Source: Oscillibacter valericigenes
Lineage (GTDB): Bacteria > Bacillota > Clostridia > Oscillospirales > Oscillospiraceae
DNA: 64,000 nucleotides
Direction of reading: 5' to 3'
Assembly: GCF_021531915.1 (NCBI RefSeq)
Contig: NZ_JAFBIV010000012.1
Location: 1 to 64,000 of the forward strand
Each line of letters starts with the position of its first letter. Positions within the stretch are counted from its first letter, which is position 1. Below, one piece after another: positions 39,540 to 41,641 of this stretch. The position numbers and the translations under genes are program-made. The notes under the pieces were generated by a model. It saw only the letters and a list, made by a program, of their open reading frames with translations, had not been told where the DNA came from and made no database searches.

Positions 39540-40220
39540 ATGAATCTCGTGTATACTGGCAAGACCAAAAACGTCTATGCCCTGGACAACGGCAATTACC
39601 TGCTGAAGTTCAAGGACGACTGCACCGGCAAGGACGGCGTGTTCGATCCCGGTGAGAACTCCGTGGGCCTGACCATCGACGGCGTGGGTGATGTGAACCT
39701 GCGCATGTCCATCTACTTCTTCGAGAAGATCAACGCAGCCGGCATCCGCACCCACTATGTCAGCGCCAACCTGGATGACACCACCATGGAAGTCCTGCCC
39801 GCAAAGGTCTTCGGCAAGGGTCTGGAGGTCATCTGCCGCCACAAGGCCGTGGGCAGCTTCCTGCGCCGCTACAAGGACTATGTGGAGGAGGGCGCTGATC
39901 TGCCCGCCTATGTGGAGACCACCTTCAAGAACGACGAACTGGGCGATCCCCTGGTCACCAAGGACGGTCTGGTGGTGCTGGGCGTCATGACTGAGAAGCA
40001 GTATGACGACATGAAGGAAATGACCCAGAAGATCACCCAGATCGTGGCCGATGACCTGAAGGAAAAAGGCCTGGTGCTGTACGACATCAAGTTTGAGTAC
40101 GGCTACGACGCCGACGGCAATGTCATGCTGATCGACGAGATCGCTTCCGGCAACATGCGTGTGTATAAGGATGGTCAGTACATCGATCCCATGACCCTCT
40201 CCGAGCTGTTCTTTGCGTAA
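39540..40220 (+). CDS. Divergent SAICAR synthetase paralog (PurC-like)
   Basis: 226 residues. It keeps the PurC frame: YTGKTKNVYAL (nucleotide loop), FGKGLEVICRHKAVGSF (cf. VRN-AAGS), VLYDIKFEYG and LIDEIASGNMRVY (cf. LADEISPDTCRLW). It lacks the C-terminal KDRFRRDMGG segment of the canonical enzyme at 41686 and reads MTLSELFFA instead. An insertion before the second helix (KDGVFDPGENSVGLTIDGVG) is also particular. It may be a second SAICAR synthetase or may act on another substrate. Stop TAA overlaps the next ATG (TAATG), so it is translated in step with the PurF-like paralog. Confidence 0.85.
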   Translation: MNLVYTGKTKNVYALDNGNYLLKFKDDCTGKDGVFDPGENSVGLTIDGVGDVNLRMSIYFFEKINAAGIRTHYVSANLDDTTMEVLPAKVFGKGLEVICRHKAVGSFLRRYKDYVEEGADLPAYVETTFKNDELGDPLVTKDGLVVLGVMTEKQYDDMKEMTQKITQIVADDLKEKGLVLYDIKFEYGYDADGNVMLIDEIASGNMRVYKDGQYIDPMTLSELFFA

Positions 40221-41641
40221 TGGGCGGGTTCTTTGGAGCAATCTCCAAGAGGGATTGCGTGCTTGATATTTTCTTCGGTGTGGACTATCACTCCCACCTG
40301 GGCACCCGCCGGGGCGGTATGGCCATCTATGACAAGGCCAACGGCTTCCAGCGCCAGATCCACAACATCGAGAATACCCCCTTCCGCACAAAGTTCGAAG
40401 CGGATCTGCACGATTTTCATGGCTGCAGCGGTATCGGCTGCATTTCCGATACAGACCCCCAGCCTCTGCTGGTCCGGTCCCATCTGGGGCTGTACGCCAT
40501 CTCCACCGTGGGCATCATCAACAACGCCGAGCAGCTGGTGGAGACCTACTTCTCCGATCACGGCCATCAGTTCATGGCCATGAGCAGCGGCAAGGTCAAT
40601 GCTTCTGAGTTGACCGCCGCCCTCATCAACCAGAAAGACTCCCTGGTGGAGGGTATCCGCCACGCCCAGGAGGTCATCGACGGCTCCGTCACCATTCTGC
40701 TGCTGACCCCGGACAGCATCATCGCTGCCAGGGACCGGCTGGGCCGTCTGCCGGTGCTGATCGGCAAGAACGACGATGGCTGCTGCGTCTCCTTCGAGTC
40801 CTTCGCCTATCACAAGCTGGGCTATCAGGATGCCTACGAGCTGGGACCCCGGGAGATCGTCCGCATTACGGCGGATGGATATGAGACGCTGTCCCCTGCC
40901 GGGAAGGACATGAAGATCTGTGCCTTCCTGTGGACCTATTACGGCTATCCCAACTCCAACTACGAGGGCGTCAACGTGGAGGTCATGCGCTACCGCAACG
41001 GCGAGATCATGGCCCGGGATGAGGTCGCTCAGGGCCATCTGCCCAAGGTGGACTACGTGGCCGGCGTACCGGACTCCGGCCTGCCCCATGCCATTGGCTT
41101 CGCCAACCGCAGCGGCAAGCCCTTTGCCCGCCCCTTCGTGAAGTACACCCCCACCTGGCCCCGGTCCTTCATGCCTGCCAATCAGGAAGTCCGCAACCAG
41201 GTGGCCAAGATGAAGCAGATCCCCGTGCCCGAGCTGATCGAAGGCAAGAAGCTGCTGTTCGTGGACGACTCCATCGTCCGTGGCACCCAACTGCGGGAGA
41301 CTGTGGAATTCCTGTATGAGAGCGGCGCCGAGGAGGTCCACATGCGCTCCGCCTGCCCGCCCATCATGTACAGCTGCAAATACCTGAACTTCTCCCGTGG
41401 CAATTCCGATATGGACCTGCTGGCCCGCCGGAAGATCCAGGACCTGGAGGGCGACGAAGGCCAGCAGCATCTGGAGGAGTATGCCGACGCCTCCACCGAG
41501 CGGGGCAAATGCCTGCTGCGCTCCATCTGTGAGGAGATGGGCTTCGACTCCCTGGGCTATCAGTCCCTGGACGGCCTGCTGGAGGCCATCGGCATCGACC
41601 GCGATAAGATTTGTACCTACTGCTGGACCGGAAAGGAATAA
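40220..41641 (+). CDS. PurF-like amidophosphoribosyltransferase paralog lacking the N-terminal catalytic Cys
   Basis: 473 residues. It aligns with PurF over both domains: an Ntn-type N-terminal domain (HLGTRRGGMAIYD, GIGCISDT) and a PRTase domain with VAGVPDSGLPHAIGFA and the PRPP motif LLFVDDSIVRGTQ. Four Cys at the positions of the Bacillus-type Fe-S cluster are kept (KICAFLW about 234, SCKYL about 385, ICTYC about 465 and 468). The N-terminus is MGGFFG where PurF, after processing, begins CGxFG: the glutaminase nucleophile is Gly. It therefore should not hydrolyse glutamine; an NH3-dependent, regulatory or different activity is possible. It is coupled to the PurC-like gene by TAATG. Confidence 0.85.
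   Translation: MGGFFGAISKRDCVLDIFFGVDYHSHLGTRRGGMAIYDKANGFQRQIHNIENTPFRTKFEADLHDFHGCSGIGCISDTDPQPLLVRSHLGLYAISTVGIINNAEQLVETYFSDHGHQFMAMSSGKVNASELTAALINQKDSLVEGIRHAQEVIDGSVTILLLTPDSIIAARDRLGRLPVLIGKNDDGCCVSFESFAYHKLGYQDAYELGPREIVRITADGYETLSPAGKDMKICAFLWTYYGYPNSNYEGVNVEVMRYRNGEIMARDEVAQGHLPKVDYVAGVPDSGLPHAIGFANRSGKPFARPFVKYTPTWPRSFMPANQEVRNQVAKMKQIPVPELIEGKKLLFVDDSIVRGTQLRETVEFLYESGAEEVHMRSACPPIMYSCKYLNFSRGNSDMDLLARRKIQDLEGDEGQQHLEEYADASTERGKCLLRSICEEMGFDSLGYQSLDGLLEAIGIDRDKICTYCWTGKE

Follow-up and report, generated by a model that had tools for sequence, protein, structure and literature searches.

What does a PurF homologue do once it has lost the cysteine with which PurF attacks glutamine, and why does a purine operon carry it, together with a divergent PurC, directly in front of canonical PurC and PurF? 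The question is raised by a stretch of 64,000 nucleotides from Oscillibacter valericigenes (RefSeq assembly GCF_021531915.1, contig NZ_JAFBIV010000012.1, positions 1 to 64,000), here called the window, which lies on contig C3 of a 2.49-Mb genome. The first-pass annotation of this DNA had described two successive C-F pairs in the operon, the first of them coupled by the sequence TAATG, and both the open reading frames (ORFs) and their overlap were confirmed. In the following, C' denotes the PurC-like and F' the PurF-like paralog of the first pair, and relatives are referred to by working labels for loci (L) and genomes (G) where needed. The first committed purine step is taught as glutamine-dependent. 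We propose, at a probability of roughly 0.6, that F' is an aminase acting on 5-phosphoribosyl 1-pyrophosphate (PRPP), which would form 5-phosphoribosylamine (PRA) with free ammonia rather than glutamine, and that C' is a working PurC variant. F' is more than an accessory: of 198 near-complete genomes belonging to the window's order, 40 yielded no PurF-type protein besides it. The pair is laid out as follows.

39540..40220, + strand: C', a divergent PurC of the SAICAR-synthetase family, 226 residues (Pfam SAICAR_synt, 142.5 bits; alignments; predicted model)
40218..40222, + strand: TAATG, the stop codon of C' overlapping the start codon of F', with one A common to both ORFs (sequence)
40220..41641, + strand: F', a PurF homologue with replaced glutaminase residues, 473 residues (PRPP loop and iron-sulphur cysteines intact)
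41264..41287, + strand: PRPP loop of F', D349-D350-S-I-V-R-G-T356 (place computed from the residue number)

The N-terminus of F' reads MGGFFG. A mis-called start was ruled out by an upstream scan: no in-frame ATG, GTG or TTG lies 5' of the ATG, back to the stop codon at 40166-40168, and thus no alternative start restores a Cys-Gly beginning, in agreement with the loss of the nucleophile stated at first pass. In an alignment of 141 F' sequences, from which identical sequences, rows with stops and rows below 85% coverage had been dropped, the nucleophile column is occupied by Gly in 130 sequences and by Ser in 10, one sequence having a gap there, versus Cys in 31 of 31 canonical PurF proteins. 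The suggestion that Gly2 might be invariant did not hold, given the 10 sequences with Ser. Changes extend to the residues which we take to bind glutamine in PurF, namely the Arg of HRGQ, the Arg of the GHxR loop, the Asn of HNG and the Asp of TDSE. The Arg following His26 is Leu in all 141 F' (HRG to HLG), the Asn of HNG is replaced by Val, Ile or Thr just as consistently, the Arg-containing loop is shortened, and the Asp column shows Ser (91), Gly (31) or Lys (8), the alignment being less sure at that column. As a substitute nucleophile, Cys74 was considered, which is present in 137 of the 141 sequences; it was rejected as a general replacement because the position is Ile in three F' from Bacteroidota.

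The PRPP site is kept. Each of the eight positions of the loop DDSIVRGT is identical in 138-141 of the 141 sequences, and the iron-sulphur cysteines 234, 386, 465 and 468 are all retained, as are Lys308 and Arg315; the alignment thereby bears out what had been read from the single sequence. Compared with PurF (EC 2.4.2.14) of Bacillus subtilis (1ao0/1gph) and Escherichia coli (1ecb), to which it is ~30% identical, F' differs by the missing Cys nucleophile, the replaced glutamine-binding residues and an altered flexible loop. This loop is rebuilt to Y309-T-P-T-W313 (140-141 of 141), and W313, W238 and C379 are new invariant residues relative to PurF. With the NCBIfam model TIGR01134, F' scored 179 bits, below the cut-off of 350, whereas canonical PurF scored above it. 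The dead glutaminase-like domain is nevertheless strongly conserved, Y23, S25, H26, L27 and D77 being invariant in 53 F'; in total, these 53 sequences, 57-84% identical to the F' of the window, share 88 invariant columns.

F' would accordingly be pictured as a PurF descendant in which the phosphoribosyltransferase site and the iron-sulphur cysteines were kept and the glutaminase was lost, and which may form PRA from PRPP using free ammonia. According to PMC3261824, E. coli PurF is still able to use ammonia after replacement of Cys1, and hence an ammonia-dependent PRA step would need no new chemistry.

A search of genome contigs revealed at least 579 stretches encoding an F' relative, the best 80 of these being 82-91% identical, and a protein search gave at least 8000 candidates, the best 120 with 79-100% identity; among the matches listed, the closest F' proteins bearing an organism name are from Dysosmobacter. 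Among 198 genomes of the window's order with at least 95% completeness (completeness values tool-supplied; genome counts tallied by hand, the main ones recounted from typed lists), F' was found in 110, canonical-kind matches only in 80 and neither in 8. The 110 genomes comprised 69 with one or more further PurF-type matches and 41 without; for genomes whose second match is unlisted, its presence was taken from the number of matches. When these 41 F'-only candidates were checked with TIGR01134, the cut-off was reached in none of them and in 5 of 5 positive controls, the F' of the 41 genomes scoring about 142-189 bits. One of the 41, G510, carries a fragment of canonical PurF at a contig edge, which brings the F'-only count to 40 and that of genomes with both proteins to 70. 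The conclusion that F' never replaces PurF, drawn from a sample across the phylum, was overturned by these 40 genomes. Of the 41 candidates, G510 included, 39 had a PurM and 40 a PurD scoring over the respective cut-off. Both were over the cut-off in 38 of the 40 F'-only genomes (exceptions G361 and G398) versus 1 of the 8 genomes having neither PurF nor F' (Fisher P 4e-6); the pathway is therefore kept where F' is the only first-step candidate found.

In a tree of 84 rows, including 53 of the 141 F', F' and canonical PurF form separate clades with a support of 100 and a long branch between them. The F'-only state requires seven parsimony changes on the 53 F', at least four of which are forced by well-supported branches (one row, L077, was counted as having PurF, its genome being unsearched). 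Canonical PurF was thus probably lost several times.

The genomic position of F' is consistent with a role in the first step. Of the 39 genomes having PurM (among the 41 candidates, G510 included), 30 carry F' directly before purM, the gap never exceeding 338 bases; in G508, the piece of purM adjoining F' is cut off by the contig end. The whole operon purE-C'-F'-purM-purN-purO-H*-purD-purL, H* being a stand-alone formyltransferase for aminoimidazolecarboxamide ribonucleotide (AICAR), was found at ten F'-only loci, one of them (L160) in a genome of 1.2 Mb and 99% completeness. The extra ORFs of at least 110 residues in these ten operons are a formate/nitrite transporter (L140, L147) and one 439-residue ORF (L160), and nothing else; they thus contain no recognised separate glutaminase gene. 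The transporter gene lies between purM and purN at L140, L147 and L172, its family having been scanned in L140 only. In three inspected genomes with both proteins (G061, G451 and G457), canonical PurF is encoded apart from the other purine genes.

Other neighbourhoods occur. F' is directly downstream of carB at five loci in four genomes of one family; at one of these, L125, carB is flanked on its far side by a gene of opposite orientation. In three Bacteroidota records, two annotated and one (L196) read by tblastn, F' is followed by pepT-gcvT, and on the megaplasmid of Peptoclostridium acidaminophilum it precedes pepT. The Bacteroidota F' (Parabacteroides, Phocaeicola, Bacteroides) are 49-50% identical and start with MGGFFG as well. 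GcvT releases ammonia, and the carB and pepT-gcvT neighbourhoods lend circumstantial support to ammonia use. No neighbour common to all F' was present among the loci inspected. In G537, another ORF separates two pieces of F'. An unverified 12.9-kb record from human stool labelled 'Bacteriophage sp.' (MT836108.1) contains F' at 65% identity and one further matching place, and may in fact be bacterial DNA assigned wrongly to a phage.

Several observations weigh against F' as the ammonia-driven enzyme of the purine pathway. F' and purM are on different contigs in 8 of the 39 genomes, and in G500, F' is 1.9 kb from purM, before purE. In G205 and G225, canonical PurF is in the purine cluster and C'-F' elsewhere. 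Outside the window's order, F' is mostly a lone gene. In a sample of 299 genomes across the phylum, 20 contained F' (at least 57% identity), and all 20, including the 16 outside the order, also had a second PurF-type match; for genomes whose second match is unlisted, this rests on the match count. Together with the rebuilt flexible loop, which could indicate a different acceptor, and the new invariant W313, W238 and C379, this would fit a phosphoribosyltransferase with another acceptor or product in a different pathway, the F'-only genomes obtaining PRA by another route. We regard this as quite unlikely, since PurM and PurD are both retained in 38 of the 40 F'-only genomes and F' takes the place of purF in complete operons. 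The separate branch using PRPP and aspartate that the first-pass annotation had considered is likewise unlikely wherever F' and C' occupy the positions of purF and purC in a purine operon that is otherwise complete. A related explanation is that F' does make PRA but receives the nitrogen from another protein, be it a glutaminase subunit encoded elsewhere or ammonia from GcvT or PurL. The dead domain is conserved as a docking surface would be, and the products of carB and pepT-gcvT handle ammonia or glycine; the ten complete F'-only operons without a recognised extra glutaminase gene and the lack of a common neighbour argue against it. A separate glutaminase could still be encoded outside the operons, but overall we consider a donor protein unlikely.

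F' as a PRPP-sensing regulatory partner of canonical PurF, also raised at first pass, would account for a dead glutaminase beside an intact PRPP loop and for the further PurF-type match in 69 of the 110 F' genomes (70 with G510). This is improbable, as a pure regulator misfits the 40 genomes where the searches gave no canonical PurF. The F'-only genomes might themselves be an assembly artefact and F' a redundant relic. Among the 80 named loci, the genomes of 50 were covered, with a canonical PurF match in 34 (7 of which cross a stop codon, taken to be near the match end) and none found in 16; all 16 of the titled F'-only genomes are metagenome-assembled, and all 15 titled isolates have canonical PurF. 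One of the 41 F'-only calls, G510, was moreover wrong on the family-model check, and some absences of canonical PurF may be assembly losses. For 40 of 110 genomes at a completeness of at least 95%, however, the binomial P is 4e-24 against a 5% loss rate and 3e-8 against 15%. The 88 invariant columns argue against a relic, as does the comparison with the window at L012-L014 and L016, where F' is better conserved (87-88% identity) than canonical PurF (67-69%). We therefore judge an artefact highly improbable. Among the ideas of the first-pass annotation, the ammonia-dependent enzyme fits best, but 'back-up' is too weak a term for a protein found alone in 40 of 198 genomes.

The partner protein C' scored 123.2 bits with TIGR00081, below the cut-off of 189.9, in contrast to canonical PurC, which scored above it. 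Its predicted model has a mean predicted local distance difference test score (pLDDT) of 89.9, and the best Foldseek match is 4fgr at a template-modelling (TM) score of 0.84. C' shares with PurC (EC 6.3.2.6; Thermotoga maritima 1kut, Streptococcus pneumoniae 4fe2/4fgr) the fold, the GKTK motif for adenosine triphosphate (ATP), the residues for carboxyaminoimidazole ribonucleotide (CAIR) and Mg, and the operon slot; it differs by a missing C-terminal segment and an inserted invariant loop. The shorter C-terminus and the diverged substrate loop, both noted at first pass, were recovered in the alignments as a truncation and an insertion. The truncation removes the K-D-x-F-R-R-D segment of PurC, and the motif K-[DENQS]-x(1,2)-[FYV]-R was found in 0 of 43 C' versus 64 of 64 PurC. 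The insertion, F35-D36-P37-G38-x-N40-x-V-G43-L44, is invariant and lies close to the Thr which contacts aspartate in the human enzyme. G7-K8-x-K10, E96, R100, S106, K130, D132, D136, K184, E186, D199 and R207 are fully conserved (1.00) in 44 C' rows, and at the Asp preceding the Arg, D197 in PurC, C' carries Gly instead.

The ATP, CAIR and Mg residues of C' were identified as kept by matching, via alignment and motif, to the residues given in PMC9376930, according to which the aspartate carboxylates contact Thr40, Lys191, Lys228 and Arg232 in human PAICS. The equivalents of Thr40 and Lys191 are kept in C', as judged by alignment and motif. Lys228 and Arg232 presumably correspond to the C-terminal Lys/Arg motif missing in C', a match made by hand. 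The missing motif therefore appears to comprise aspartate-binding residues. No invariant Lys or Arg without a counterpart in canonical PurC was present in the C' alignments. Since the C-terminal motif is gone and no new invariant Lys or Arg is seen, aspartate may be bound differently in C', or a smaller donor may be used.

C' (at least 64% identity in this comparison) was found in 26 of the 40 F'-only genomes versus 4 of 40 with both PurF types, the latter being 39 of the 69 and G510 (Fisher P 5e-7), and it is the sole PurC match in 23 of the 26. In the phylum sample, C' (at least 52% identity, C'-like matches at 42-50% being excluded) occurred in 44 genomes and was the sole PurC match in 25, all 25 with a PurF-type protein. 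The two genes are often, not always, neighbours, and C' is found without F', as in the operon read at L215, which pairs it with canonical PurF. The constant co-occurrence that the first-pass annotation had put up for checking is therefore false, although C' is strongly enriched in F'-only genomes. Two genomes of another class, G205 and G225, encode closely related versions of both proteins next to each other (84% identity for C', 72-83% for F'), and their genus-mates G165 and G185 have neither, which suggests that the pair was transferred as a unit. The C-terminal Lys/Arg segment is likewise missing from a third PurC type, which is 38% identical to C' and ends in the tail NQLDCSKML. The purine operons of G417, G434 and G446 contain purB and no PurC, G434 being without any PurC match (loci for both observations: L198-L200, in G417, G446 and G372, and L152, L154 and L158).

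The simplest assignment for C' would be the CAIR-consuming step, with C' and F' having replaced the canonical enzymes in many relatives and, where canonical PurC and PurF are also present, as in the window, probably serving as a second set of enzymes alongside them when ammonia is plentiful, for instance in the gut. A bolder reading is that C' and F' constitute an ammonia-driven module in which C' would convert CAIR directly into AICAR by amidation with NH3 and ATP, bypassing succinylaminoimidazolecarboxamide ribonucleotide (SAICAR) and the first use of PurB. It is prompted by both proteins keeping the phosphoribosyl or nucleotide site and losing parts of the site for the amino-acid donor, which is glutamine in PurF and apparently aspartate in PurC, and by the enrichment of C' where F' has replaced PurF. 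Built, as regards C', on one motif loss and one co-occurrence, it is rather doubtful, and a search of the open-licence literature gave no earlier example of a CAIR-to-AICAR ligase. The presence of purB as a marker of the SAICAR route was not decisive, since purB is needed for the synthesis of adenosine monophosphate anyway.

The operon has the order gntR-like gene, purE, C', F', purC, purF, purM, purN, H*, purD, purL, guaB. Apart from the pair, the following features were assigned.

38218..38952, + strand: GntR/UTRA-family transcriptional regulator, upstream of the operon (Pfam GntR and UTRA)
38987..39484, + strand: PurE, 5-(carboxyamino)imidazole ribonucleotide mutase (TIGR01162, 189 bits, over cut-off)
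41686..42405, + strand: canonical PurC (TIGR00081, 241.8 bits, over cut-off)
42395..43891, + strand: canonical PurF with a 29-residue leader, the Cys nucleophile being residue 30 (TIGR01134, 520 bits, over cut-off)
43893..44918, + strand: PurM (ORF; same order found again in related operons)
44912..45517, + strand: PurN (ORF; assigned from sequence and order)
45514..46707, + strand: H*, stand-alone AICAR formyltransferase without an inosine monophosphate (IMP) cyclohydrolase domain (NF005492, 720 bits, over cut-off)
46971..48254, + strand: PurD (ORF; assigned from sequence and order)
48255..51944, + strand: large PurL (ORF; assigned from sequence and order)

The regulator gene also precedes the operon in close relatives, and its product could be the operon's own regulator. 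As stated at first pass, the operon is without purB and without an IMP cyclohydrolase domain. The genome as a whole, however, encodes PurB (C22:291527-292855) and the archaeal-type cyclohydrolase PurO (C22:184922-185539), and this contradicts the idea that the paralogs were recruited to a missing step. PurO is described as an archaeal-signature IMP cyclohydrolase in PMC3261824. Within the order, purO adjoins the gene of the stand-alone AICAR formyltransferase in purine operons of the F'-only loci L139, L143, L151, L159 and L160. An Rfam scan of 21 sources at gathering scores gave no purine riboswitch before F'; its only purine-related signals were ZMP/ZTP riboswitches, found in L124 and L128 at a distance of several kb from F'.

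Human CPS1, NH3-type NadE and AsnA are relatives of glutamine amidotransferases that use ammonia. They exemplify the same switch from glutamine to ammonia as is proposed for F', in other enzymes and at other steps; for the first step of purine synthesis, no established enzyme of the ammonia type is known to us. Among the open-licence literature, mostly judged from listings, no paper was recognised as treating bacterial F' or C'. For crenarchaea, Brown et al. 2011 (PMC3261824) described a PurF' without the N-terminal Cys near purine genes and proposed an ammonia-dependent enzyme. Like F', it is a Cys-less paralog near purine genes and beside canonical PurF; by the published description, its nucleophile position is Ala or Val in many cases, versus Gly or Ser in F', and each crenarchaeal genome has one gene of each kind, whereas F' stands alone in 40 genomes here. 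The same idea is now extended to Bacillota and Bacteroidota, including genomes in which no canonical PurF was found, and, if it is true, the proposal of 2011 becomes testable in bacteria.

The F' clade, publicly annotated as 'amidophosphoribosyltransferase', cannot use glutamine by known chemistry, yet in a gut-rich order it supplies the only first-step candidate found in one fifth of the near-complete genomes. If the ammonia module were true as well, the purine pathway would have two nitrogen atoms shifted from amino acids to free ammonia. If F' is ammonia-driven, the nitrogen economy of these bacteria, the reach of PurF-directed glutamine analogues and predictions of auxotrophy would change.

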